Assembly: GCF_032302195.1 (NCBI RefSeq)
Contig: NZ_CP135275.1
Coordinates: 930,001-994,000, forward strand
DNA from: Paenibacillus sp. MMS20-IR301
Lineage (GTDB): Bacteria; Bacillota; Bacilli; Paenibacillales; Paenibacillaceae
Length of the DNA stretch: 64,000 nt
Direction: 5' to 3'
The position numbers were made by a program, and so were the translations under genes. Shown piece after piece: positions 5,341-49,866 of the stretch. The notes below the pieces were generated by a model. It saw only the letters and a program-made list of their open reading frames with translations. It ran no database searches and was not told where the DNA came from. Position 1 is the first letter of the stretch. Every line of letters begins with the position of its first letter.

Positions 5341-5572
5341 AGTTACCTCCAAGTATGATTTCAATATTATGGATGTAAAGCGTAATCTTCGTCCATTTTA
5401 TAACAGACCGGCCATTCTGCCAAACTCTATGCGAAGAAGAGATGATAGCGGTAGTCCGCTTGCCGGAAATGATTGAAGAGTGAAAGGAAAATGGTTATTT
5501 TCATAAAAAGGCTGGACGAAATGCCCAAACGGAGTTATCCTGAGATTGTGAAAAAAATAACGGAATACAAGA

Positions 5573-5713
5573 TTCTCGGGGTAAGGTGAAATTCCTGACC
5601 GGCGGTGATGTTCAAAGCGAACTAAGCCCGCGACTCGTTACTCTATCACAAGAGGAAGCGACTGATCTGGTGAGAATCCAGAGCCGACGGTAAAGTCCGG
5701 ATGGGAGAGGATC
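5573..5713 (+). ncRNA. FMN riboswitch (RFN element) upstream of an EamA permease
   Basis: Conserved RFN blocks are visible in order: TTCTCGGGGTAAGGTGAAAT, CCTGACCGGCGGTGAT, AGCCCGCGA, GATCTGGTGAGAATCCAGA, GCCGACGG, and AGTCCGGATGGGAGAGGA. In Firmicutes FMN binding normally stops transcription or translation of flavin synthesis or uptake genes. A terminator follows about 50 bases downstream, so attenuation is expected. It is the first of two RFN elements in this window. Confidence 0.95.
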
Positions 5714-5762
5714 ATAAGATAAAGGCAGACAGGTGTATTCCTGGTGTCTTTATTGATAATGG

Positions 5763-9390: not shown

Positions 9391-12156
9391 GTGGTAAGGT
9401 ATATTCACAGCGGTGATCAGGTAGAGGCGGAACAGAAGCAGCAAGGCAAGCCGGTTGGGCAAAAAGCGCCGCCGCAGGCCGGGAAGCCCCCCCGGCATGA
9501 TAGTGCTGGCGGAAGGCAGGACGCCGAGGCAGCAGCGGAGCCGGGCGAAGTGACACGCCCGATTGCGGGCGGGCAGGAGAGCCCGTCCGGGCTGGACGCT
9601 GAGCCAGCAGCGGAGCCGGGCGAAGAGACGCGCCCGGTTGCGGGCGGGCAGGAGAGCCCGTCCGGGCTGGACGCCGGGGCAGCAGCGGAGCCGGGCGAAG
9701 AGACGCGCCCGGTTGCGGGCGGGCAGGAGAGCCCGCTGGGACAGGACGCAGGCGAGGGCAGTGCGGCGGAGGCGGACAGCGGCGCAGGAGAGGACGGAGC
9801 AGCGCGCGGTGAAGAGAGAGGCGCAGTGGAAGCTACAGACGAATCATCGCCCGGGGGCGGGGTATTCGGATTTCTGAGCAGCCTGTTCGGCGATGAACCG
9901 GAACCGGGTCAGGGCAATGAAGCTGACGCTGGCTCTGCCGGCGGGCAGAATCAGCAGATGGAAGCTGCGGATGAACTGGGCCAGCCTAATCAGGATCAGA
10001 AGCAGGATGGGCGCAATAACGTGGACATCGGGGTGGATTCCGGAGCAACCGGTTATGGAGACCATGATTTACAGGCTTCTGATGGAGCAGGAACACCGGA
10101 TCAGGAGGGAACAGCGAAAGCGGATCAGGATAGCCCGGATTCCGGCCCGGACACAGCACCGCCGGGGGCAAGTTCAGCAGATCAGGGCACTCAGGGCTTT
10201 ACTGCAGGGAATAATGAAAATGGCGGACAATTAAGCTCGGGGTCAAACAAGGAATCAGCCCCGGCAGCTGGTGCACAATCTTCTGCAGCTGAGGCCCCAG
10301 GAGACCAGGATCAGGATACGGAAACATCAGATGAACTGGGGGCGGAACCCCCTGCTGCGGCCCATAAAGGCTTTTTCGCCCGTTTATTCGGCGATGACGA
10401 AGAGACTGAGGATGAGGGTGAAGAAGACTCCTATTCCAATACTTCCGGCAGGAGCGGGGGGCAGCGTGCAGCAGTTGGTCAGGCACAGAGTAAGGCACAG
10501 GGGGACGGCGGCCAGGAAAGCCCGGAGCAGTCCGGAGAGAAAACTGGAAAGGCTGCCAAGAAGGCGAAAGCCGAGCCGCAAGCGGAGGCGGCGGAAAAGC
10601 CGAAAGATCCGCTTCAGCAGAAACGTGACAATGAACGTTCAGATTCACTGGAGCAGTCCATCCTGTACTGGCAGGGTAATGACAAAATTTCGCCCGAGCT
10701 TGAAGCTACCAAAAAAACACTGACAGAGGTCATGGGCCTGGGCTCTTCCTTTGACATCGTGTTCAGGGAAATGTCCTTCGGCGGCCGCCGCACTGCACTG
10801 CTCTGTATCAGCGGTTTCGCCAAGGATACGATTATTGACGAGATTCTGAAGCGTCTCACCTACCTGACCCCGGAGAATATTTCTGCCGATGTGTTCTCCA
10901 GCTTCATGAGCGAGTACATTCCCCATGTCCAGGTGGAGAAAGGCGAGCTGCTGAGCGAGAGCATCAATAAAGTGCTGTCGGGAATGAGCGTGTTCTTCTT
11001 CGAGGGTGAAACTCAGGTAATTGTGATGGATACCCGCGCCTACCCTGCACGCAGCCCCGATGAGCCTTCCATTGAACGGGTTGTCCGCGGAGCACGCGAC
11101 GGCTTTACGGAGACACTGCTGAGCAATGTGGCGCTGGTCAGACGGCGGGTACGCGATCCCGGGCTTAAATTTGAGATGCATCAGATCGGGCGGCGGACAC
11201 GGACCGATGTCAGCTTGGCCTATATTGATGACATAGTGGACAAGACCCAGGTCCAGGCGGTTACGGATAAGCTGAAAAGTGTGGATATCGACGGCATTCC
11301 TCTGGCTGACAAGCAGCTGGAGGAGGCAATCGTAGGAGGGGGCTGGAATCCCTATCCGCTTGTCCGTTACTCGGAGCGCCCGGATATTGTGGCTTCCCAT
11401 CTGCTGGAAGGCAGAGTGGTAATTTTTGTGGATACCTCACCGAGCGTAATGGTACTGCCAACGACGTTTTTTGATCTGTGCCAGCATGCGGAAGAGAACC
11501 GCCAGACGCCTTTCATGGGCAGTTACCTGCGCTGGGTGCGGTTCATCGGGATTTTTGCCTCAATGTTTCTGCTGCCGCTGTGGATGCTGCTGGTTATTCA
11601 TCCGGAGCTGAAGCCGGCGGTGCTGGAATTTATCGGGCCGCAAAAAACTGCCAAGATCCCGCTCATCGCCCAGTTCCTTATCGTAGAGCTTGGGGTGGAC
11701 CTGCTGCGGATGGCCGCAGTGCATACCCCGACACCGCTGGGTTCAGCGATGGGCCTGATTGCCGCCATTCTGGTCGGCGACATTGCCGTACAGACAGGGC
11801 TGTTCGTCAACGAAGTCGTGCTCTATATGGCGGTGGCTTCAATCGGGATGTTCGCAACGCCGAGCTATGAGCTGGGGCTGGCCAACCGGATTGTCAGGCT
11901 TGTGCTCCTGCTTGCTGTAGCCGCCTTCCAGGTGCCCGGCTTCATGATCGGAACGACGCTGCTGGTGGTGCTGCTGACGACACACCGCTCGTACAATTCG
12001 TCGTATTTGTGGCCGTTTATACCATTTAATGCAAAAGCAATGGGTGAAATCATCCTGCGACAGCCGGTGCTCAGCTCGAAAACAAGGCCTTCCTTCAACA
12101 AAACCAGAGATAATACCCGGATGCCGCCTGTCCAGAAGAATGAGCGCAAGTCGTAG
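9391..12156 (+). CDS. spoVAF: SpoVAF/GerA-type germination protein with a long disordered N-terminal extension
   Basis: The C-terminal half (from about residue 416) is a full GerA-family/SpoVAF protein: soluble domain LEQSILYWQGN...GYGDGF-type core (here RVVRGARDGFTETLLSN), then about five membrane helices from residue 715 on, ending in a Ser/Lys-rich tail. Position after spoVAB and before lysA matches spoVAF, whose product modulates germinant-receptor signalling in B. subtilis. Unusual is the N-terminal extension of about 410 residues, acidic and rich in Gly, Ala, Glu and Gln. It contains three 25-residue tandem repeats (about residues 44-118) and two copies of an aromatic motif, GFLSSLFGDEPE and GFFARLFGDDEE. 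The GTG start follows AGAAGGAGGT. SpoVAF proteins are usually near 490 residues; this one is 921. Confidence 0.88.
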   Translation: MVRYIHSGDQVEAEQKQQGKPVGQKAPPQAGKPPRHDSAGGRQDAEAAAEPGEVTRPIAGGQESPSGLDAEPAAEPGEETRPVAGGQESPSGLDAGAAAEPGEETRPVAGGQESPLGQDAGEGSAAEADSGAGEDGAARGEERGAVEATDESSPGGGVFGFLSSLFGDEPEPGQGNEADAGSAGGQNQQMEAADELGQPNQDQKQDGRNNVDIGVDSGATGYGDHDLQASDGAGTPDQEGTAKADQDSPDSGPDTAPPGASSADQGTQGFTAGNNENGGQLSSGSNKESAPAAGAQSSAAEAPGDQDQDTETSDELGAEPPAAAHKGFFARLFGDDEETEDEGEEDSYSNTSGRSGGQRAAVGQAQSKAQGDGGQESPEQSGEKTGKAAKKAKAEPQAEAAEKPKDPLQQKRDNERSDSLEQSILYWQGNDKISPELEATKKTLTEVMGLGSSFDIVFREMSFGGRRTALLCISGFAKDTIIDEILKRLTYLTPENISADVFSSFMSEYIPHVQVEKGELLSESINKVLSGMSVFFFEGETQVIVMDTRAYPARSPDEPSIERVVRGARDGFTETLLSNVALVRRRVRDPGLKFEMHQIGRRTRTDVSLAYIDDIVDKTQVQAVTDKLKSVDIDGIPLADKQLEEAIVGGGWNPYPLVRYSERPDIVASHLLEGRVVIFVDTSPSVMVLPTTFFDLCQHAEENRQTPFMGSYLRWVRFIGIFASMFLLPLWMLLVIHPELKPAVLEFIGPQKTAKIPLIAQFLIVELGVDLLRMAAVHTPTPLGSAMGLIAAILVGDIAVQTGLFVNEVVLYMAVASIGMFATPSYELGLANRIVRLVLLLAVAAFQVPGFMIGTTLLVVLLTTHRSYNSSYLWPFIPFNAKAMGEIILRQPVLSSKTRPSFNKTRDNTRMPPVQKNERKS
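9520..9744 (+). repeat. three tandem 75-bp coding repeats in spoVAF
   Basis: Units 9520-9594, 9595-9669 and 9670-9744 each begin GACGC and carry GCAGCGGAGCCGGGCGAAG. They encode the peptide core AEPGEETRPVAGGQESP. The near identity, units two and three above all, points to recent duplication and possible length variation between strains. Confidence 0.9.
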
Positions 12157-19687: not shown

Positions 19688-19726
19688 TGTTGTAGGCAAA
19701 ACTTGTTATTCAACTGAATAGATCAA

Positions 19727-19893
19727 TCCTTCAGGGCAGGGTGTAATTCCCTACCGGCGGTGATGCTGCCAGATCGGGCTGTAAAGTCCAGATCTGCTGC
19801 TTAGTCCGCTACCCGCTTCGTATGCTTGTCATATGGACGGTGGACCCGGTGCAATTCCGGGACCGACAGTATAGTCTGGATGGAAGAAGGAGA
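19727..19893 (+). ncRNA. FMN riboswitch (RFN element) of the rib operon
   Basis: RFN blocks in order: CAGGGCAGGGTGTAATTCCC, TACCGGCGGTGATGC, GCTGTAAAGTCC, GCCCGC-type pairing (here ACCCGC), GACCCGGTGCAATTCCGG, GACCGACAGTATAGTC, and CTGGATGGAAGAAGGAGA. It has a longer variable arm than the first RFN in this window. FMN binding should shut down ribD-ribE-ribBA-ribH through the terminator that follows. Confidence 0.95.
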
Positions 19894-20031
19894 GATTGAC
19901 GCGCTGCGCTTGTTTTGGGCAGCCGTACTGCAGTATTTTCTAAAATTATGTGCTAAGTTTCACAATTTCGTCAGTATTCCTGGCGTTTATTTAGGCATAA
20001 TTTTACTAAGCTGCCGTTAACTCTCGTATAT

Positions 20032-38432: not shown

Positions 38433-39926
38433 ATGATTCTTTCATTGGACCAGGGGACGACCAGTTCAAGGGCGATTCTCTTTAACGAGAGCGCAGGAAT
38501 GATCGCGCAAGGACAATATGAGATTAAACAGTCTTTCCCCCGCCCGGGCTGGGTAGAGCATGACCCGGAGCAGATCTGGGAGAGCCAGCTTGCCGCCGCC
38601 AGAGATGCTATCAGCGCCAGCTCAGCCCCGGCTGACAGCATTACAGCAATCGGTATCACCAACCAGCGGGAGACGGCACTGATCTGGGAGAAGGTCACAG
38701 GGAAGCCGATCTATCCGGCGATTGTCTGGCAGGACCGCCGGACAGCTCAGCATTGCGAGGAGCTGAAGGCGCAGGGGATGGCCGGAGAGATTGCAGCGAA
38801 GACAGGGCTTGTCATCGACGCCTATTTCTCAGCTACGAAGCTGGCGTGGATTCTGGACCATGTACCGGGAGCCAGGGAGCGTGCAGCTAAGGGAGAGCTC
38901 ATGGCAGGAACCGTTGACAGCTGGCTGATCTGGAAGCTTACAGGCGGCGCTGTGCATGCCACAGACGTTACCAATGCCTCCCGGACGATGCTGTATAATC
39001 TGCATGAGCGCAGATGGGATTCCGGACTGCTTGAGACGCTGCGGATTCCGCCGTCCATTCTGCCTGAAGTACGGATGTCGGGCGGTGATTTCGGTACCGC
39101 AGACAAGCAGTGGTTCGGTGCAGCTATTCCAATCCGCTCTGTGCTGGGTGATCAGCAGGCGGCGCTATTCGGTCATACCTGTCTTGAAGCGGGCAGTGCC
39201 AAGAATACCTACGGGACAGGCTGCTTCATTCTGATGAATACAGGTACAGAGGCTGTATCCTCGAGCCACGGCCTGCTGACGACCGTTGCCTGGGGCATCG
39301 GGGATGAACTCTATTATGCGCTTGAAGGCAGTGTATTTGTCGCAGGAGCGGCCGTACAATGGCTGCAGGAAGGGCTGGGTCTGATTGAAGGGCCGGCTGA
39401 CTCGGAGGAGAAGGCAAGTGAAGTCGGAGACAGTGAGGGCGTAGTGGTCGTACCTGCCTTCACCGGTCTTGGTGCGCCGTACTGGGATATGTATGCCCGC
39501 GGGGCTGTGTTCGGGCTGACCCGCGGCACAACTGCCGGACATCTGGTCCGGGCAACGCTGGAGTCACTGGCCTTTCAGTCCCGTGACGTGATCGGAGCTA
39601 TGGAGAAGGACGCAGGGATGCCGCTCAGCGGCCTCAGAGTGGATGGCGGCGCAGTACGCAACAATCTGCTGATGCAGTTCCAGGCAGACATTCTGGGCAG
39701 CGACGTTACACGTACAACCTACGCGGAGACTACTGCACTTGGTGCTGCGCTGCTTGCCGGACTTACATCAGGCATCTGGACCCGGGAGCAGCTGGAGCAG
39801 TTCAACAAGGCCGAGAAGGTGTTCTCGCCGCAGATGGGGCAGGAGGAGCGTGAGCACCGTTACCGCGTCTGGCAGGATGCTGTAGCGCGGACGATGGGCT
39901 GGGAGAAGCATGAAGGGCAGCACTAG
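38433..39926 (+). CDS. glpK: glycerol kinase
   Basis: Phosphorylates glycerol to sn-glycerol 3-phosphate with ATP, a 497-residue FGGY-family kinase. Motifs: SLDQGTTSSRAILF, ITNQRETALIWEK, the active-site GDQQAALFGH, NTYGTGCFILMNTG, VPAFTGLGAPYWD and RVDGGAVRNNLLMQFQADI (around VDGGAVRNN). The ATG follows AGGAGG by 8 bases. Unlike in B. subtilis, no glpF or glpD is adjacent, and I see no GlpP-type antiterminator structure in the 75-base leader. Confidence 0.96.
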   Translation: MILSLDQGTTSSRAILFNESAGMIAQGQYEIKQSFPRPGWVEHDPEQIWESQLAAARDAISASSAPADSITAIGITNQRETALIWEKVTGKPIYPAIVWQDRRTAQHCEELKAQGMAGEIAAKTGLVIDAYFSATKLAWILDHVPGARERAAKGELMAGTVDSWLIWKLTGGAVHATDVTNASRTMLYNLHERRWDSGLLETLRIPPSILPEVRMSGGDFGTADKQWFGAAIPIRSVLGDQQAALFGHTCLEAGSAKNTYGTGCFILMNTGTEAVSSSHGLLTTVAWGIGDELYYALEGSVFVAGAAVQWLQEGLGLIEGPADSEEKASEVGDSEGVVVVPAFTGLGAPYWDMYARGAVFGLTRGTTAGHLVRATLESLAFQSRDVIGAMEKDAGMPLSGLRVDGGAVRNNLLMQFQADILGSDVTRTTYAETTALGAALLAGLTSGIWTREQLEQFNKAEKVFSPQMGQEEREHRYRVWQDAVARTMGWEKHEGQH

Positions 39927-39961
39927 GTTCACTGGGACAGAAGTGTAAAAGCCTGCCGGAT

Positions 39962-40005
39962 AAAAAACGGCCCGCAGCAGTTATCCTGCCAGCGGGCCGT
40001 TTGAA
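39962..40005. terminator. bidirectional terminator between glpK and the KASIII-like gene
   Basis: AACGGCCCGC pairs with GCGGGCCGTT. A-rich sequence before and T-rich after let it serve both convergent genes. Confidence 0.8.
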
Positions 40006-40012
40006 TTATATA

Positions 40013-41005
40013 TTAGTATTCCATTACAAAGGCAACATTTTGCCAGCCGGCGCCTACAGTCCAGAACAGCACCTTATCACCGCGTTCGAGCTGTCCGGTC
40101 GTCACGGCTTTATGCAGTGCGATGAAAGGGCTGCTCGTAGAGGTGTAGCCGAATTCATCGCCGATGTATACTGCAGCATCCGGATCAATTCCGATTTTGC
40201 CGGAGACCGCCTGAATGTTCGGTAGCGACAGCTGCGAGAAGCAGGCCGCTTTGATGGATTCAGGGGCAATCCCGTTATTGCTTAGCAGTGTATTGATCGA
40301 TTCCGAGGCAGCATCCACGCAGATCGAATCATCGAACGGAATAAACTTCACATTGAATTCGCCTGCAGCGACACCGCTGCGTCCGAGATTAGCCAGGCCT
40401 TCTGCCGGGAATAAGGAGTTCCCGTAGACACAGGTATCGGTCTGGTAGATCGAATCAATGAAGCCTACAGAATTCTCATCACGCTCCAGGATGACAGCAG
40501 CAGCAGCATCCCCGAAGTTGGCGTAGTATACCGGATCATTTTTGTTAGCATGCGGGGCAACATAATCCGAGCCGATGACAAGCGCACGGCGGATCCGCGG
40601 ATTGCCAAGCATCTGGCGGCTGACCTGCTCCACTGCAGCAGTCATTCCGGCACAGTTGGCGTTGCTGTCGATGCAGATCGTATGCGATGCCCCGTTAATT
40701 AAACGATGAATCATGAGTGAGTTTGTAGGAAAAATATATTCAGGAGTTTGGCTTGCATAAGCGATTAAATCAATATCTGCACCGGACAATCCGGTTTTTT
40801 CCAGAACATTGCTTGCGGCTTCAAAGGCCATCGTCAGGGAGTTCTCATCTGTGCTGCTGATGCTGTACCGGGTATCACGGCCCAGTGTAGCCAGAAGTCC
40901 GCGGATATCAATGCCCTTCTCATCGAAATGCTGAATGAAAAAGTCATTGCTGATCTTAGTGCTTGGATGGTAGATATCAATGTCCTTAATGCGAATCCCA
41001 GCCAT
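40013..41005 (-). CDS. KASIII/FabH-like acyltransferase lacking the usual His and Asn
   Basis: A 330-residue thiolase-fold protein related to 3-oxoacyl-ACP synthase III. The nucleophile Cys118 is in NANCAGM, and GDAAAAVIL and the C-terminal VGAGWQNVAFVMEY are typical. The catalytic His (normally in PHQAN) aligns with Ser257 (FSQLSLPN), and the Asn (normally GNTS) with Tyr287 (FGYTS). So a normal decarboxylating condensation is unlikely; acyl transfer without decarboxylation is the better guess, as for some KASIII-like proteins of secondary metabolism. ATG 41005 follows AGGAGGT by 6 bases. Last gene of the minus-strand cluster. Confidence 0.85.
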   Translation of the reverse strand: MAGIRIKDIDIYHPSTKISNDFFIQHFDEKGIDIRGLLATLGRDTRYSISSTDENSLTMAFEAASNVLEKTGLSGADIDLIAYASQTPEYIFPTNSLMIHRLINGASHTICIDSNANCAGMTAAVEQVSRQMLGNPRIRRALVIGSDYVAPHANKNDPVYYANFGDAAAAVILERDENSVGFIDSIYQTDTCVYGNSLFPAEGLANLGRSGVAAGEFNVKFIPFDDSICVDAASESINTLLSNNGIAPESIKAACFSQLSLPNIQAVSGKIGIDPDAAVYIGDEFGYTSTSSPFIALHKAVTTGQLERGDKVLFWTVGAGWQNVAFVMEY

Positions 41006-41181
41006 AGTAGACCTCCTAAAAGTATTATGCATATAAGCTTTCTGATTACACTTCGGCAAAACTCGCTTCGTAAGCTAAAACTTAAGTTATGTTAGTAAGT
41101 GATCTCGTACAAACTTAATCATGATAACTGGCGGTAAAGCCCGGAGTTTCAATGATGGAATTTAGGTGTATATAAAAATTA

Positions 41182-41532
41182 CTAGGCTTGTACCGTCGAG
41201 ATAATGTCCAGGTTTTCCAGTCCTGCTTTGCGGCCCAGACGCGCCAGCTGCATTTTGAGAATCGGGTTGTTCTCCAGGGTCAGGGTGACCTTCTGGAAGC
41301 CGTCAGACTTGAACATGATGAAGCAGCCTTCCAGCAGCGGCACAACATCAGGGGCGGTTACGTTAAGCTTTCTGCAGTCGATATCAAGGGCATATTCAGC
41401 CGGATTAATCGGGTTAATGGTCTGCTGGTAAGCTTGAATGGATTTCAGGCCATCCTCATTCGAGAAGGTTCCTTCCAGCTCAATATTAATGACTTTCTTT
41501 GCACTGTCCGTCTTCAAAATAAATTGTCCCAT
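41182..41532 (-). CDS. small STAS-like protein
   Basis: A 116-residue soluble protein. Alternating strands and helices, with YALDIDCRKLNVTAPDVVPLL in the place of the STAS core strand and helix (D.S.V..IDSSG region), suggest a SpoIIAA/STAS-like fold, but the usual phosphorylatable Ser is not evident. ATG 41532 is chosen because GGGAG lies 8 bases upstream; ATG 41538 is too near it. The gene lies between the CMD-like and KASIII-like genes and has its own candidate promoter upstream. It may be a scaffold or regulator for the pathway enzymes, which is inference. Confidence 0.6.
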   Translation of the reverse strand: MGQFILKTDSAKKVINIELEGTFSNEDGLKSIQAYQQTINPINPAEYALDIDCRKLNVTAPDVVPLLEGCFIMFKSDGFQKVTLTLENNPILKMQLARLGRKAGLENLDIISTVQA

Positions 41533-41666
41533 GTTCATCTCTCCCGTAATTTTGATTGCATGACAACTCAGACCTTATCGGTTAATCATCATGATGGATA
41601 TCCGGAAACTGCATTCTTACGACTATATTCGACATTTGAATTTAGTTTTTGGGATATTTTGCCTTC

Positions 41667-41696
41667 ATTATAACCGCATGATTCTCGAATATGCAA
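41667..41696 (-). promoter_or_regulatory. SigA-type promoter inside the cluster
   Basis: On the minus strand: TTGCAT, an 18-base spacer and a perfect TATAAT. It would drive the STAS-like and KASIII-like genes independently of the riboswitch. It is flanked by the inverted 12-mer ATTCGACwTTTG at 41627-41638 (plus strand) and 41699-41710 (minus strand). Confidence 0.65.
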
Positions 41697-41731
41697 TACA
41701 AAAGTCGAATGTTGTAATATCTTGTAAGGGA

Positions 41732-42094
41732 TTAACGGATCTCTTCCAGCGTCTCCAGCAAAACATTGAAAGCCGAAATCACTCTTGGAGCGCCAATAAC
41801 CGGTACCAGATGCAGCAGAATTCCTTTGATTTGATCAACGGTCATTCCGACGCGAAGTGCCATTACATAATGAACACCAAGCTGTTCAAACTGCCCCATA
41901 GTTATTAAAGATGAGATAACGGCGATCTCCTTCCAGTCCGCCCCAATAGTTGTCCGCTGAAAAATATCCCCGTAAGCATTACCCATAATGAACTCGGCAA
42001 GCTCAGGGAAATGCTCTTTGATCGGTGCCAGCGCTTTTGCTCCGTATTGTCCTGAAAGATTAGTGAAATGCTCCAAACCGCTGTTCGTGTTCAT
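41732..42094 (-). CDS. carboxymuconolactone decarboxylase family protein
   Basis: A 120-residue CMD-family protein (PF02627 type). The core reads DWKEIAVISSLITMGQFEQLGVHY, ALRVGMTVDQIKGIL and APRVISAFNVLLE. The AhpD-type CxxC redox pair is absent, so it is not a peroxidase relay. Family members act as decarboxylases or lyases on ring or keto-acid substrates; the substrate is unknown here. AGGAGG precedes the ATG by 9 bases. It is 49 bases after the thiamine-diphosphate enzyme and surely co-transcribed with it. Confidence 0.82.
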   Translation of the reverse strand: MNTNSGLEHFTNLSGQYGAKALAPIKEHFPELAEFIMGNAYGDIFQRTTIGADWKEIAVISSLITMGQFEQLGVHYVMALRVGMTVDQIKGILLHLVPVIGAPRVISAFNVLLETLEEIR

Positions 42095-42143
42095 ACTTCA
42101 TGGCCTCCTGAGAGTAGGGTAGTAGAGTGGGATGCAATCCGGC

Positions 42144-43787
42144 TTAATTAAGATCAAGTGTCCGGTGAGCCGTAGGAGGCATTTCATCACGGTCGGTTAA
42201 AAGCTCAATCACAGCAACACGGTTTAGCGCAATTGCCTCGCGGACTGCTGAAGCAAATTGCTCCTGTGTCTCGCATCGGAAGCCTGCGGCACCAAGCGAT
42301 TCGGCGAATTTGACAGCATCAAGAGGAACCTCGAACAGTGTTCCATCAATCCGGCCGGTTGTTTTCGCCATACCCTTGAGTGCCATATCCAGCTGCATAT
42401 TATTGACAACAATGAAAATCACAGGTATTTCCTTGCAAACGGCTGTGTTTATTTCAGTACCAAGCATCATGAAGCAGCCGTCACCCGTAATGCAGAACAC
42501 GGTTTCTTGCGGAGCGGCTACCTTGGCTCCGATGGCCATGCCGATTGAATTGCCCATGCAGGCAAAATAATCATCGAAAACAAAGCTGCCGGCCTTCTTA
42601 ACGTTGAACCATTTCACTGCGTTGAAGCCATGGCTGCCGTCATCGACAAATACAGTACTGTCATAAGGGATCAAATCACTCATTGTGCTCATTACTGAGG
42701 CGAGAGACAGCTTGGGCAATACGGGAAGCTCCTCATGATACTCATTGGATACTGTAATCTCGCGTCTCTTGACGGACGCCGGATCAATCTGCTGAAGGTA
42801 CAGCTCCAGATTGTCCCGCATATCGCCGCCAACAGAAATGGTGCGAGAATGGAGGATTTTACCGACAAATGTAGGATCGACATCAAACTGAATCAGCAGC
42901 TCAGGATGGTTCTCAGGCTTCAGATTACAGATGGTCATATCGCTTAGCCGTGAGCCAAGGACAATAAAAAGATCGCTGTTGTTCATTAGCTCTTCACCGT
43001 GCGGACATCCGCCGACGCCGATAGGCCCGTGATAGAGCGGGTGATCCCAGGCGATGGTGCCTTTGCCGCCGGGAGAGGTGACAACAGGAATGTTGAAGGT
43101 TTCGGCCAGCTGGACAAGCTCCTTGTGGGCTCCGGAACGGTTGACGCCTTTACCGGCGATGATCAGAGGTCTGCTGGAGGCATTGATTGCCGAGACGACC
43201 CGTTCAAAGTTAGCGTAGTTGACGAGCTTTTCCCGTTCAGGCAGCACGATCCGGCATTCCTCCAGCCGTTCCGTTTGGACATCAAAGGGAATGCAGAGAT
43301 GGACAGGGCCTTTTTTGTCACCCAGCGCGATGGACAGGGCATGATTGAATATAGTGCTGAAATGATCACCGCGTTCAACCAGCTTGCTGAACAGCGTTGC
43401 CGGCCGGAACATCTCTGCCAGATCGGCAAGGTAGGATGTGGAATCCTGACACTGGGGAATCCCCAGCTCTTTAATTGACTGATGGCCGGTGATGAAGAGA
43501 ACGGGAAGATTGTTAGCCTTGGCATGTGCCGCAGCGGTGAGCAGGTTCGTTCCGCCCGGGCCGGAGGTGCCGAAGGCTACCCCGAGACTGCCTGTTTTGA
43601 GCGCGTAACCGCCTGCTTCAAATCCGGAGCTGGATTCATGCCGGCCGGGAATGAATTCAATACCATAATCTACAAGCTTTAGTGCGATAGGACAAATAGA
43701 TTTGCCGATAATCCCAAAAGAATGTGTTACTCCGAGATTGTGTAATGCCTCGGCCATATAATCTGCAACTGTCTTCAGAACATCCAC
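42144..43787 (-). CDS. thiamine-diphosphate-dependent enzyme (acetolactate synthase-like)
   Basis: A ThDP enzyme of the acetolactate synthase/benzoylformate decarboxylase superfamily, about 547 residues. The PYR domain has the cofactor-activating Glu51 in PGRHESSSGFEAGGYA, followed by GTSGPGGTNLL. The middle domain has PLIIAGKGVNRSGA. The C-terminal PP domain has the Mg/ThDP motif GDG at 435-437 ending in NN at 462-463. Such enzymes join a 2-oxo acid to another carbonyl (acyloin or acetohydroxy acid formation) or decarboxylate it. No small regulatory subunit and no ilvC neighbour are present, so a branched-chain amino acid role is unlikely. The start is uncertain: GTG 43787 is the first plausible codon after the riboswitch terminator; upstream in-frame codons lie within it. 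Confidence 0.85.
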   Translation of the reverse strand: MDVLKTVADYMAEALHNLGVTHSFGIIGKSICPIALKLVDYGIEFIPGRHESSSGFEAGGYALKTGSLGVAFGTSGPGGTNLLTAAAHAKANNLPVLFITGHQSIKELGIPQCQDSTSYLADLAEMFRPATLFSKLVERGDHFSTIFNHALSIALGDKKGPVHLCIPFDVQTERLEECRIVLPEREKLVNYANFERVVSAINASSRPLIIAGKGVNRSGAHKELVQLAETFNIPVVTSPGGKGTIAWDHPLYHGPIGVGGCPHGEELMNNSDLFIVLGSRLSDMTICNLKPENHPELLIQFDVDPTFVGKILHSRTISVGGDMRDNLELYLQQIDPASVKRREITVSNEYHEELPVLPKLSLASVMSTMSDLIPYDSTVFVDDGSHGFNAVKWFNVKKAGSFVFDDYFACMGNSIGMAIGAKVAAPQETVFCITGDGCFMMLGTEINTAVCKEIPVIFIVVNNMQLDMALKGMAKTTGRIDGTLFEVPLDAVKFAESLGAAGFRCETQEQFASAVREAIALNRVAVIELLTDRDEMPPTAHRTLDLN

Positions 43788-43819
43788 CCCGCAAGTTGTT
43801 ATTAGGTATGTAGCAATAG

Positions 43820-43849
43820 AAAACCTGCACTCGTTAGTAGGAGCACAGG
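43820..43849 (-). terminator. expression-platform terminator of the cyclic-di-GMP riboswitch
   Basis: On the minus strand CCTGTGCTC pairs with GAGTGCAGG (two G-U pairs) and is followed by TTTTC. It lies 54 bases after the aptamer and about 33 before the ThDP gene start. GTTGC of the aptamer 3' end could pair with GCAAC just before the hairpin. Confidence 0.65.
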
Positions 43850-43902
43850 CCTGTTGCACGAATCACAGACCGGACATGAAATCTAAGACGTCCGTAGTGT
43901 TT

Positions 43903-43990
43903 CAGCAACCTGGCTGTCATGGTCCTATAAAGATATAGGACTGTAGATCCATGGCTTTGCGTCATTCCCTTTCGAAGAATTTTGCCTCTT
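43903..43990 (-). ncRNA. cyclic-di-GMP-I (GEMM) riboswitch
   Basis: On the minus strand the conserved class I core is complete: GAGGCAAAATTC, the GAAA tetraloop in TTCGAAAGGGAA, GACGCAAAGCC, then a variable stem with AGTCC...GGACC, and GACAGCCAGGTTGC closing P1. These are the tetraloop and ligand-pocket elements of the known cyclic-di-GMP-I aptamer. It leads the ThDP-CMD-STAS-KASIII cluster. Whether ligand turns the cluster on or off depends on the terminator pairing, which I have not modelled. Confidence 0.92.
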
Positions 43991-44028
43991 ATTCTGTTAG
44001 GAGTAATAGAAGAATAATTTTCCTTTAC

Positions 44029-44056
44029 AATATATTCCTCGCTCTCCTTTTGTCAA
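44029..44056 (-). promoter_or_regulatory. SigA promoter of the riboswitch-controlled cluster
   Basis: On the minus strand: perfect TTGACA, a 16-base spacer and TATATT, with the aptamer beginning about 39 bases downstream. The remaining 44057-44323 stretch is AT-rich and shows no gene. Confidence 0.65.
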
Positions 44057-44323
44057 TAAGCGCAGTTTATGGAACTCGAAATTTAGCGAATTTTCAGGGA
44101 TGAAAGCGGCTTGAAATGATAGTTTTCAAACCATTTGCATTATGTTTTCCGAAAATGTGGATGTGTAATAATATAAATTCAAAAAATCAAATGTATAGTA
44201 TTATAGAGGTTTTTATATATATATTTAATGAATAGTAAGTAAATAATACAAATTTACTTTTTATGGTTATGCAGAATCTTAACACTTTGTGAATATTACA
44301 GTAAATCTTTGCCTCGACATAAT

Positions 44324-44361
44324 AAAAAAGCCGTTTCCGCAGTTTGCAGCTGCGAAAACGG
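44324..44361 (-). terminator. terminator of the chemoreceptor gene
   Basis: On the minus strand CCGTTTTCGCAG pairs with CTGCGGAAACGG and is followed by CTTTTTTATT. Confidence 0.8.
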
Positions 44362-44377
44362 ACTCTCTGCGAATCTG

Positions 44378-45628
44378 TTAAAATTTGAAAATATGAATTG
44401 TTTTTTGCAGCTGGAAAACCGATTGGGTCATCTTCTCGGTCTCTTCAGCTACGGACTGCAGTGCATGGATTTGCTCGTTCATCGCTGCGGATACCTCTTC
44501 GGTACCTGCTGCCGTCTGCTGGGTGATCGCCGAAATATTCTCAATTGCTCCGGAAATTTTAAGCGCACTTTCGAGCATCAGGTCACTCTCGGCGGAGAAG
44601 GAGGCGATCTGCTCAGTTATGTACTGTACGCTGTGAACGATTTGGGAGAAGATATGTGCAGTTTCGGTAATCATCTCATTCTGTACTTGTACTACTTCTT
44701 CGTTGATGGCAATATTATCGATCGCCTGCTTGATATCAGCTTCTATGCTGCGGACCAGTCCGAATACCTCTTTGGTGGAGGCAGTGGATTCTTCCGCCAG
44801 CTTGCGGACCTCCTGGGCGACAACTGCGAATCCGCGGCCATGTTCGCCTGCACGCGCAGCTTCAATGGAAGCGTTCAATGAGAGCAGGTTCGTCTGCTCA
44901 GCAATTTCAGTAATGCTCTTGGCAATCATGGTAATGCCGCGGGCATTCTGCGAAAGGGCTTCGATTGTGTCTGCCACCTTTTGTGTAGCCTGAATATTCT
45001 TGCGCATGCCGTCTGCCTGGGTATCAACGGAGATTCGTCCTTGTTCAACCAGTTCAAGCGTATGTACAGAGCGTTTATTCATTTCTTTTGTAGAATTCGT
45101 ATAATTGGAGACCTTGGTTTCAATATCTTTGATGGACTCGGTCATTTCTGCAATATCTACCGAAATTTCGTTCGCGCCGAGGGCCAGTTCATTGGAAGAG
45201 GAGGCTACCTGGGCCATTACGATCTTCAGGTTCTGGTTCTTATCCTCTATCCCGCGGCTGGCATCCATAACCTGACGGGTGAGCTGTGAAGCATCAGTCA
45301 GAATCTTCTTCAGCTTGTCGATCATTGTGTTGAAGGAACGGCTGATATCGCCCATGGAGCCACTCTCGTCCGCCCGGCTGGTGAAGTCGCCTTTGGCAAT
45401 CGTATGCGTTACATTGGAGATATCCTCAAATGAAGATGTAAGCGTTCTCTCAATGAAGCGCGCGAGCGGGAAGGTTAGGGCAGCGAGTACCGCAATCAGA
45501 ATAAGGCCAATCACAACCTTGCCCATAATGATCAGCGTAATCAGCACGGGGACAGCGAATAAAGCGGCAACCAGGTAACATCCGGCAATAATTCTTTGTT
45601 TTAACGGCAGCTTGTTCATCCAGTCCAT
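44378..45628 (-). CDS. methyl-accepting chemotaxis protein
   Basis: A 416-residue chemoreceptor. The N-terminus has two adjacent helices (about 13-32 and 34-54) with almost no extracellular loop, then a HAMP domain (about 55-108), a coiled-coil signalling domain and the conserved hairpin [41 protein letters not shown] (core around [12 protein letters not shown]). Lacking a periplasmic sensor domain, it probably senses membrane or cytoplasmic signals. The ATG follows AGGGGGA by about 10 bases. It is transcribed in the same direction as the cyclic-di-GMP-controlled cluster but upstream of that promoter, with its own terminator. Confidence 0.93.
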
Positions 45629-47794: not shown

Positions 47795-49387
47795 CTACAG
47801 CAGAATGATTTCTTCTGCAGTGTTGATCTCAGGCAGTCCGGCCAGCTTAACCAGGACATCCTGCGGAACAGCCTTGTCAACGGTCAGCAGCATGATGGCG
47901 GCACCGCCGACAATTTTACGGCCAACCTGCATGGAGGCGATGTTGACGTCATTCTGTCCGAACAATGTGCCGACGAGACCGATAATACCCGGTTTATCGT
48001 TGTGCGAAATGACAACCTGATGGCCTTCCGGAGCGATGTCCACCGGGAATTTGTTGACCTGCACAATCCGTTCGCCATAGCCCTGCAGCAGTGTGCCGGC
48101 AACCAGGCGTTCTTCGTCATGCTCAGCCTTCAGAGTAACCGTGATCAGGTTGGTGAAGCCTTTGGTCTTGGAGGCCTTGGTCACTACCACGTTAACATCG
48201 CGCGTCTTGGCCAGGTGCATCGAGTTTACGATATTAACATCACCGGCAAAGTGACGGGAGAGAACCCCTTTGACAATATAGCGGGTTAATGGCTGAGTAT
48301 CCACATCAGAAAGATCTCCGGCGTATTCCACATGAATCTCGCGGATGGCCCCGTCGGTAATCTGGGTTGCGAAGCTGCCCAGCTTCTCGCCGAGTGTAAA
48401 GTATGGCTGCAGCTTGTTCATCACGCTCGGTGCGACCGGCGGGATGTTCACGGCATTGATGAAAGGCTCATTGCGCAGAATATGCAGCACCTGCTCCGAT
48501 ACGTCAATTGCCACATTCTCCTGTGCTTCCACGGTCGAAGCCCCCAGATGCGGAGTCACGATAATTTTCGGATGGGAGAGGAACGGATGATCAGCCTCCG
48601 GCGGCTCCTTCTCGAATACGTCGAAGGCAGCTCCGGCAACGATCCCGCTGTCAATGGCTTCAACCAGGGCCATTTCATCGATAACACCGCCGCGTGCACA
48701 GTTGACAATGCGCATACCTTTTTTCATAACCTCGAACTGCGGGCGGGAGATCATATGGCGGGTTTCCGGTGTCAGCGGTGTATGAACAGTAATGAAGTCT
48801 GCACCACGGACAATGTCATCCACCGAAGCAAGCTTCACTTCCAGCTTCTCTGCACGGTCTGCGGTCAGGAACGGGTCATAGGCCAGTATATCCATGCCGA
48901 AGGCTTTGGCTCGCTTAGCCACTTCACTGCCGATCCGGCCCATACCGAGCACGCCCAGTGTTTTGCCGCGCAGCTCAACGCCGAGGAAAGTCTTTTTGTC
49001 CCATACACCGGAGATGGTCTTGGCATAGGCTTGAGGAATATGACGGGCGAGTGCCATCATCATAGCGAAAGCATGTTCACAGGTAGTAATGGTATTGCCG
49101 TCCGGGGCGTTGATTACAACGACACCGCGCTGGGTGGCAGCTTCCAGCTTAATGTTGTCTACACCGACGCCAGCCCGGCCGATCACCTTGAGATTAGTAC
49201 CGGCTGCGATGATTTTCTCAGTTACAGTAGTCTGGCTGCGGACGAGCAAGCCGTCATATTCGCCAATGATTGCAATAAGCTCATCTTCATTTAGTCCTGT
49301 TTTCTTGTCCACAGTCACATCGCTTGCGTCCATCAATTGCTGAATCCCCAAATCACTGATCGGGTCCGATACTAATACTTTAAACAT
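47795..49387 (-). CDS. serA: D-3-phosphoglycerate dehydrogenase
   Basis: First committed step of serine synthesis: 3-phosphoglycerate to 3-phosphohydroxypyruvate with NAD. The 530-residue long form has a catalytic/NAD domain (about 1-315; GKTLGVLGMGRIGSEVAKRA with GxGxxG, NCARGGVIDE, and the Glu and His active-site residues in EPPEADHPF and TPHLGAST). An intervening domain (about 318-445) and a C-terminal ACT domain (about 455-530; HNDKPGIIGLVGTLFG) follow. The ACT domain often binds serine for feedback control. A T-box leader adds control by tRNA charging. Confidence 0.96.
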   Translation of the reverse strand: MFKVLVSDPISDLGIQQLMDASDVTVDKKTGLNEDELIAIIGEYDGLLVRSQTTVTEKIIAAGTNLKVIGRAGVGVDNIKLEAATQRGVVVINAPDGNTITTCEHAFAMMMALARHIPQAYAKTISGVWDKKTFLGVELRGKTLGVLGMGRIGSEVAKRAKAFGMDILAYDPFLTADRAEKLEVKLASVDDIVRGADFITVHTPLTPETRHMISRPQFEVMKKGMRIVNCARGGVIDEMALVEAIDSGIVAGAAFDVFEKEPPEADHPFLSHPKIIVTPHLGASTVEAQENVAIDVSEQVLHILRNEPFINAVNIPPVAPSVMNKLQPYFTLGEKLGSFATQITDGAIREIHVEYAGDLSDVDTQPLTRYIVKGVLSRHFAGDVNIVNSMHLAKTRDVNVVVTKASKTKGFTNLITVTLKAEHDEERLVAGTLLQGYGERIVQVNKFPVDIAPEGHQVVISHNDKPGIIGLVGTLFGQNDVNIASMQVGRKIVGGAAIMLLTVDKAVPQDVLVKLAGLPEINTAEEIILL

Positions 49388-49591: not shown

Positions 49592-49845
49592 AAAAAAACT
49601 CCCAACCCCATACTACTGCCGTAGTAAGGGACGAGAGTTGTCGTGGTACCACCCTAATTCACTGTAGCAGTTAAACTACAGCCTCATTGGCCTGCAAAGG
49701 CCACACTGGTAACGGAGATGATCCGATTGTATCTACTCAAGGTTCAATACAATATCTCAGGAGCGCTAAAGAATTCTGTTCACCACCGGTTTGCACCAAC
49801 CACCGGCTCTCTGAAGATTTCCAGATCCTTTGTTCCATCATCGGT
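49592..49845 (-). ncRNA. T-box leader of serA
   Basis: On the minus strand the T-box sequence AGGGTGGTACCACG (rc of 49642-49655) is followed by a terminator. Its ACTC..CG.CCC and GGGGTTGGGAGT arms are followed by seven T (49592-49639). Stem I begins GATGATGG and closes with ATCATC, and contains the AGAGAGCCGGTGGTTGGTG distal loop region. An AGC triplet (rc of 49765-49767) on the 3' side of stem I is a candidate Ser specifier codon, fitting serA. Uncharged tRNA-Ser should allow read-through. Bases 49388-49591 are further leader without a gene. Confidence 0.9.
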
Positions 49846-49866
49846 TTTGCTTGATTAATTTTTCAT

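Follow-up and report, generated by a model that had tools for sequence, protein, structure and literature searches.

Class I cyclic di-GMP (c-di-GMP) riboswitches (c-di-GMP-I or GEMM, RF01051) usually control motility, adhesion, and surface genes. Signaling by alpha-hydroxyketones is known from the CqsA/CqsS and LqsA/LqsS systems, whose synthase is pyridoxal phosphate dependent, and DhaR, the dihydroxyacetone kinase regulator of Escherichia coli, binds DhaK/DhaL. Among the xenocyloin genes of Xenorhabdus bovienii, XclA is said to be the thiamine diphosphate (ThDP) enzyme. XclB and XclC are described as ester-forming KASIII-like enzymes (PMC4425429). Here we describe a locus in a 64-kb stretch of the Paenibacillus sp. 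MMS20-IR301 genome (a single contig of 7.69 Mb), in which a c-di-GMP-I riboswitch is followed by four genes on the same (minus) strand, encoding a ThDP enzyme, a CMD-family protein, a STAS protein, and a KASIII-like protein. The whole stretch is called the window, and the aptamer, promoter, and gene positions given below are window coordinates.

The riboswitch stands before enzymes whose product is probably a small molecule of the alpha-hydroxyketone type, and relatives of these enzymes are encoded next to sensor, chemotaxis, and c-di-GMP proteins. Together, these features suggest a so far undescribed small-molecule signal linked to the choice between motile and sessile life. We tentatively favor the reading, for which we would claim a little less than an even chance, that the locus is a signal-coupled small-molecule module of two transcription units making an acyloin-type signal or cue tied to c-di-GMP. 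The first unit, consisting of a promoter, the riboswitch, and the ThDP and CMD genes, would be off at high c-di-GMP. The second unit, consisting of its own, probably Spo0A-controlled promoter and the STAS and KASIII genes, would add an acyl group, and the product would act as a signal or cue. In relatives, the ThDP gene would be served by adjacent DhaR-type GAF-PAS sensors, with GGDEF-EAL or histidine kinase output, or by chemoreceptors, while in the window's genus the riboswitch would supply c-di-GMP control in place of sensor genes.

The riboswitch leader and the ThDP-CMD pair

The features of the putative first unit are as follows.

44077..44090, minus strand: tandem TTCG repeat with a 10-bp period upstream of the riboswitch promoter, interpretable as a degenerate Spo0A-box-like pair
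44029..44056, minus strand: riboswitch promoter, TTGACA - 16 nt - TATATT (11 of 12 consensus matches; kept in aligned leaders)
43901..43996, minus strand: c-di-GMP-I aptamer (Rfam RF01051, 69.5 bits, gathering threshold 35, E 1.5e-11)
43905..43914, minus strand: 3' strand of the aptamer, GCCAGGUUGC, the predicted antiterminator, whose pairing partner is either in the aptamer itself or the 5' arm of the terminator
43815..43849, minus strand: intrinsic terminator of the expression platform (hairpin 43849-43824, T-rich tract 43823-43815)
42144..43778, minus strand: ThDP-dependent enzyme of the acetolactate synthase superfamily (Pfam PF02776, PF00205, PF02775)
41732..42094, minus strand: CMD-family protein, PcaC-like (Pfam PF02627, E 2.5e-10, 40.6 bits versus 23)

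A sequence-only reading of this DNA had placed a complete aptamer at 43903-43990 on the minus strand, with a consensus promoter upstream and a terminator downstream, and all three elements are borne out. The Rfam search returned the aptamer as the single match of its class within the window, and of 12 promoter-like sites within 39900-44500, TTGACA-16-TATATT scores highest. An alignment of leaders from 31 loci, window included, shows all three elements to be conserved; the terminator, which is not listed by a generic scan, was recognized by this conservation. In 20 aptamer sequences, standard pairs fill 99.5% of the pair cells, and both partners have changed in 5 of 20 pairs. On four of five covariation measures, none of 500 shuffles scored as high; on the fifth, which concerns further pair types, 284 of 500 shuffles did, so that the aptamer is no better than shuffled sequence by this measure.

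The terminator hairpin has a predicted energy of -12.3 kcal/mol in the window and is present in 31 of 31 leaders (mean, -13.6). Each of these leaders also holds a competing antiterminator: the duplex of GCCAGGUUGC with the terminator 5' arm is predicted at -13.3 kcal/mol in the window, with a mean of -13.9 over the 31 leaders, and it is more stable than duplexes with shuffled downstream sequence (mean z, -2.46; 22 of 31 below -2; weakest, -1.14). Because bound ligand would keep the 3' strand in the aptamer, so that the terminator forms, the natural reading is that the leader is an OFF switch for c-di-GMP. If this predicted direction is correct, ThDP and CMD would be expressed mainly at low c-di-GMP.

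Upstream of the promoter, the pattern TTCG-N6-YYYG is present in 17 of the 20 testable leaders (all but L062, L068, and L080) versus 0.4 expected in shuffles, a count that shows conservation rather than independent trials since the loci are homologous. The other 11 of the 31 leaders were too short, or the promoter was not in the stretch taken. Tandem c-di-GMP-I aptamers approximately 75 to 105 nt apart were also seen at several loci of the genus, including one in the window's own genome (G000:C1:5093854-5094089, G023:C292:1781-2058, G042:C2:884723-885001, and G047:C20:90193-90472).

The ThDP start codon is located downstream of the terminator. Over the 31 leaders the conserved start is TTG in 23, CTG in 7 (the window among them), and GTG in 1, preceded by GGGGTG or GAGGTG, and the window gene probably starts at CTG 43778-43776 behind GGGGTG 43790-43785. 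A GTG at 43859 was rejected as the start because of its position upstream of the terminator. The catalytic residues E75, G459-D460-G461, and N486-N487 are invariant over 47 rows. The protein scores 282 bits against the biosynthetic acetolactate synthase equivalog TIGR00118, below the cutoff of 538, so that it is assigned to the superfamily only. Its nearest PDB sequences are BbmA (8x3x) and CsmA (8x3z), for which no papers were found among the matches listed. The CMD protein likewise misses the PcaC equivalog cutoff (41.4 versus 155.7). Its His75 is invariant over 44 aligned rows, and the window protein has no Cys. It is likely the partner decarboxylase of the ThDP enzyme. Judging from these families, the ThDP enzyme would join two keto-acid or aldehyde units to form an acetolactate-type or acyloin product, which the CMD protein would decarboxylate or release. 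At locus L068 (approximately 9835-11080), an opposite-strand open reading frame (ORF) of 414 amino acids, possibly a mobile element, lies between the ThDP and CMD genes.

The same two families could work in the opposite direction, with ThDP-CMD cleaving an acyloin or diketone from the environment, a substrate that the GAF sensors of relatives would detect. The PDB matches of the ThDP enzyme include ThDP lyases such as benzaldehyde lyase and cyclohexane-1,2-dione hydrolase, and CMD proteins are often catabolic. We consider this catabolic role quite improbable: the unit of the window clade includes no transporter or oxidation gene, and a KASIII-like acyltransferase and riboswitch control would fit synthesis better.

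The STAS-KASIII pair and its putative promoter

The features of the putative second unit are as follows.

41703..41709, minus strand: TTCGACT, a Spo0A-box-like site that precedes the promoter-like element of STAS
41667..41696, minus strand: STAS-KASIII promoter-like element, TTGCAT - 18 nt - TATAAT (poor -35, perfect -10)
41628..41634, minus strand: perfect Spo0A core TGTCGAA, downstream of the promoter-like element
41182..41538, minus strand: STAS-fold protein, directly upstream of KASIII
40013..41005, minus strand: KASIII-like protein (Pfam PF08545, PF08541)
39962..40000, minus strand: terminator-like inverted repeat and T-run after KASIII, read from the sequence and absent from the generic scan list

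The four gene identities proposed in the sequence-only reading hold. Pfam confirms the ThDP enzyme, with three domains, the CMD protein, and the KASIII protein. The STAS protein matches solved STAS proteins in fold and has no credible sequence-family match in Pfam, NCBIfam, or a PDB profile search. In the KASIII protein, with sites mapped by FabH alignment, Cys118 is kept, while the condensing His is replaced by Ser257 and the condensing Asn by Tyr287, in 47 of 47 aligned homologs. Loss of this dyad speaks against an ordinary condensing enzyme with the FabH Cys-His-Asn triad, and because the condensing His and Asn are lost, KASIII is probably a non-condensing acyltransferase, which would transfer an acyl group by way of the kept acyl-accepting Cys. 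The suggestion that a ThDP enzyme is paired here with a KASIII-like protein in the manner of xenocyloin is therefore strengthened, since the condensing residues are gone and the logic is that described for XclB and XclC (PMC4425429). The STAS protein would be a constant partner of KASIII, perhaps docking a carrier protein.

The promoter-like element TTGCAT-18-TATAAT sits within the 193 nt that separate CMD and STAS; the generic promoter scan, which demands a better -35, omits it. The pattern TTG-N3-N16..19-TAT[AT][AC]T is present in 16 of 32 upstream regions versus 1.4 expected, and in four of five loci of the same chromosomal slot that have STAS alone (L076-L079; not L071). Both Spo0A-like sites resemble or match the core TGTCGAA given in PMC3485338. 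With one mismatch allowed and TCGA kept, 31 STAS upstream regions hold 69 such sites versus 11.3 expected, and 29 of 31 have at least one, in promoters that are homologous and hence not independent. STAS-KASIII thus seems to have its own promoter, and therefore the riboswitch would directly command ThDP-CMD.

This bears on a simpler explanation, a version of the one proposed at first, that all four genes are controlled by the riboswitch and form a plain pathway to an acylated acyloin metabolite, such as an antibiotic or surface compound, with no signaling. The four genes are conserved together, XclB and XclC provide a precedent (PMC4425429), and at loci L072-L075 the promoter pattern is absent and STAS lies approximately 50 nt behind CMD. 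Read-through from CMD into STAS is possible, because the scan lists no minus-strand terminator-like site between them. The idea of one riboswitch operon of four genes is weakened by the conserved STAS promoter-like element and by slots in which STAS occurs alone or KASIII is missing; STAS or STAS-KASIII occurs without ThDP. The sensor genes that adjoin ThDP homologs also speak against a plain pathway, which we regard as improbable. The claim of riboswitch control over the whole set is accordingly not supported.

Distribution of the cluster and sensor genes beside its relatives

Window-type ThDP genes (≥76% identity) are present in 36 genomes of the genus, and the leader regions of 33 were scanned with Rfam. 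The riboswitch precedes the ThDP gene in 32 of these 33 loci: the window (1/1), L072-L075 (4/4), L051-L058 (8/8), L060-L068 (9/9), L069, L070, and L080-L085 (8/8), and L059 and L099 (2/2), but not L098 (0/1). In contrast, none of the five loci with STAS alone in the same slot has it, nor does any of 7 other STAS-KASIII loci scanned (L031, L032, L034, L035, L036, L038, and L045), of which L031 and L032 carry a Cohnella-type ThDP. Because of this difference, we conclude that within the genus the riboswitch travels with window-type ThDP rather than with STAS-KASIII. The slot itself, between a gene for a methyl-accepting chemotaxis protein (MCP) and a glpK-like gene, may hold all four genes, ThDP-CMD-STAS without KASIII (L072-L075), STAS alone (L071, L076-L079), or ThDP-CMD alone (L098), and complete clusters also occur at other chromosomal sites (L055, L057, L059, L068, and L080).

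A second set consists of the best 80 of 465 KASIII loci with named species; some of its contigs are from the same genomes as the genus set, so that the two sets are not additive. Within these 80 loci, the KASIII proteins of Paenibacillus phytohabitans (94%) and P. tritici (93%) are closest to that of the window. All 80 loci have a STAS gene immediately before KASIII, and 45 of them have the complete ThDP-CMD-STAS-KASIII set. The set extends to another genus of the family, at L232 and L233. The expectation that the four genes would be conserved together in relatives is thus supported, at nonsyntenic sites as well. By a model built from genus aptamers, the riboswitch is present at 19 of the 45 four-gene loci, all of window type.

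In Cohnella, the order at each of the four loci with upstream sequence (L149-L152) is a c-di-GMP-I-type riboswitch, MCP, a GAF-type gene, ThDP, STAS, and KASIII; a fifth locus, L153, is cut off at ThDP. By Rfam, the riboswitches score 89.4 bits in L152 and 72.7 bits in L151, and those of L149 and L150 are the RF03167 variant. The GAF-type gene encodes 144 to 146 amino acids and is identified by Pfam in L149 and by position only in L150-L152. The Cohnella ThDP is 28 to 31% identical to the window ThDP and forms a separate tree branch (100/100); the riboswitch is found at 4 of 11 named loci with this branch. The ThDP-STAS-KASIII link therefore occurs with two ThDP branches, and the c-di-GMP riboswitch link occurs in two gene arrangements, neither of which extends to the whole of its lineage.

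More distant ThDP homologs were sampled at 33 loci, comprising 15 of 16 matches with <60% identity and 18 of 23 places outside the window's family. A GAF-sensor gene, always with the same N-terminal domain, adjoins ThDP on the same strand in 26 of 33. An MCP-like gene lies beside the ThDP-CMD pair or one small ORF away in four (L091, L227, L231, and L234; called by tblastn, with Pfam for L091 only), and neither was seen in three (L215, L216, which is at a contig edge, and L218). CMD is in the neighborhood of 27 of the 33 ThDP genes, three of them on the other strand (L221, L226, and L228). Of eight sensors analyzed with Pfam, four are PAS-GGDEF-EAL proteins and four are PAS-HisKA-HATPase proteins. 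The shared domain, of approximately 190 amino acids, is a DhaR-type GAF domain: all 14 sequences compared with the DhaR model align with part of it (best value, 5.5e-22), and the domain profile matches the DhaR structure 4lrx with E 8.2e-13. With the Pfam GAF model, 4 of 14 give a match, the strongest of which falls slightly short of the Pfam cutoff. DhaR-type GAF domains at E 1e-15 number only 0 to 5 per genome, in 49 of 100 genomes, and for this reason chance adjacency of GAF sensor and ThDP is very unlikely. In the ThDP tree, which is midpoint rooted and has some long branches, the window and P. amylolyticus-group proteins (a group name coined here) are nested in the sensor-linked family, and the nearest row outside them is the GAF-kinase-linked L100. 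Two ThDP paralogs of the window's own genome (L236, L237) carry the unconfirmed tree label "ilv."

Because genes for chemoreceptors or for sensors of the GAF-PAS-GGDEF-EAL or GAF-PAS-kinase type accompany the homologous ThDP genes, most of which also have CMD, the neighbors favor a signal over a generic surface metabolite. A different explanation is that the ThDP-CMD enzyme is itself what is sensed, with the GAF-PAS protein binding it and relaying the flux of keto acids or trioses to an output through c-di-GMP, a kinase, or chemotaxis, and with no secreted signal. Such a trigger enzyme would be in keeping with the match of the sensor domain to the DhaR model and to 4lrx, and the overlap of mechanically called sensor and ThDP ORFs in L086 and L100 fits a complex. 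It leaves STAS-KASIII unexplained, as well as the loci that have only a riboswitch or an MCP, and we judge it unlikely.

Among the sensor-linked loci, L100 and L101 have a GAF-domain gene that overlaps the ThDP gene, with no CMD found adjoining; in L100, a 340-amino-acid protein without a Pfam match follows. Two GAF-domain genes lie near one ThDP gene in L095, L097, and L226 and are possibly two outputs for one synthase; in L095, Pfam identifies one product as a PAS kinase and the other as a GGDEF-EAL protein. At least 10 genomes of the genus without ThDP at E 1e-100 (e.g., G004, G010, G014, G042, and G047) carry a frame of approximately 530 to 600 amino acids with a DhaR-type GAF domain (e.g., G014:C1:416446).

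Several observations weigh against the two-unit signaling module. The window's own genome has no DhaR-type GAF receptor at E 1e-15, Pfam finds no ligand domain in the MCP beside the window cluster, and what DhaR-type GAF-PAS domains bind may be a protein and not a ligand. The product, substrate, and receptor of the module are all putative. Half of the STAS upstream regions (16 of 32) lack the promoter pattern, and the Spo0A-site statistics are subject to the shared descent of the promoters. The riboswitch is missing by Rfam in L098, and it was not found by the genus-aptamer model at 26 of the 45 named four-gene loci (P. amylolyticus, P. pabuli, and relatives). Rfam also gives no match in four of those 26 (L121, L127, L133, and L141) or in L232 and L233, which weakens the view that the riboswitch is a fixed component of the cluster of four genes. 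There is no riboswitch match at 7 of the 11 Cohnella-type loci (L153, which is cut off, L155, L156, L157, L159, L160, and L165; four of these also by Rfam), and inspection by eye brought out no clear expression platform in Cohnella. Overall, the parts of the sequence-only interpretation that are supported are a true riboswitch, a conserved gene set, and a ThDP enzyme with a KASIII-like protein that has lost its condensing residues; control of all four genes and a riboswitch intrinsic to the pathway are not supported.

The MCP gene of the window is a conserved neighbor that is present also at the STAS-only loci. It is outside the riboswitch transcript and belongs to a separate transcript:

44378..45628, minus strand: MCP with HAMP and signaling domains (Pfam)
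44361-44331, minus strand: terminator-like site behind the MCP gene (generic scan)

In L121, L133, L232, and L233, which are P. amylolyticus-group clusters without a riboswitch match, a divergent gene adjoins ThDP; those of L121 and L232 encode GFO/IDH/MocA oxidoreductases. Elsewhere in the window there are two flavin mononucleotide riboswitch aptamers, at 5568-5716 (plus strand, 116.1 bits) and 19723-19895 (plus strand, 106.4 bits), and a T-box leader at 49624-49850 (minus strand, 107.6 bits) upstream of a serA-like gene at 47795-49387; the leader is present in eight relatives scanned as well. The labels glpK, serA, and resD are putative, having been read off the sequence only.

Comparison with known systems

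A wider generalization, which we offer as possible and rather doubtful, is that the Bacilli have widespread, undescribed signaling modules in which ThDP, usually with CMD and in some lineages with STAS-KASIII, would make an acyloin-type signal that is passed, by chemoreceptors or by GAF-PAS receptors of the DhaR type, to c-di-GMP turnover, a phosphorelay, or chemotaxis. The c-di-GMP riboswitch would close the loop in the window's genus and in Cohnella, and Spo0A would set acylation in the window's genus. If this is true, it would add a chemically distinct, ThDP-made class of signal for spore-forming Bacilli, coupled to c-di-GMP and, probably, sporulation. A role would also follow for the STAS-KASIII pair, whose genes are adjacent at each of the 80 named loci examined, and for the KASIII itself, whose Cys-Ser-Tyr site is uncharacterized. 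No open PMC literature describing the system was found, as judged by titles and abstract openings. The riboswitch class, ThDP-plus-KASIII chemistry, and alpha-hydroxyketone signaling are already known; the combination and its GAF/c-di-GMP linkage appear to be new.

The riboswitch shares the aptamer sequence, structure, and covariation of RF01051 and a termination-like platform, and differs in being directly upstream of a ThDP-CMD pair. As in the xenocyloin system, a ThDP enzyme occurs with a KASIII-like enzyme that is probably non-condensing. The locus differs in its single KASIII, which has a Cys-Ser-Tyr site and is always partnered by STAS, and in its CMD, riboswitch control, and sensor-linked relatives. 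The acyltransferases CerJ and Pau29 likewise keep the acyl-accepting residue and have lost the first condensing His (PMC4425429), although CerJ has Cys-His-Asp whereas the window KASIII has Ser and Tyr in place of His and Asn. Unlike SiaC, SpoIIAA, and RsbS, the window STAS protein has no sequence-family match, and its partner in 80 of 80 loci is KASIII. The sensors of relatives resemble DhaR in having a GAF-type domain followed by PAS, but they are fused to GGDEF-EAL or histidine kinase domains rather than to an enhancer-binding activator. Finally, much as in CqsA/CqsS and LqsA/LqsS, an alpha-hydroxyketone-type product would be encoded beside a sensor kinase in some relatives, the window's own genome having no such GAF sensor at E 1e-15. 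This resemblance is one of operation only: here the candidate synthase is ThDP dependent, the sensors are GAF-PAS proteins, and the output would include c-di-GMP and perhaps chemotaxis.

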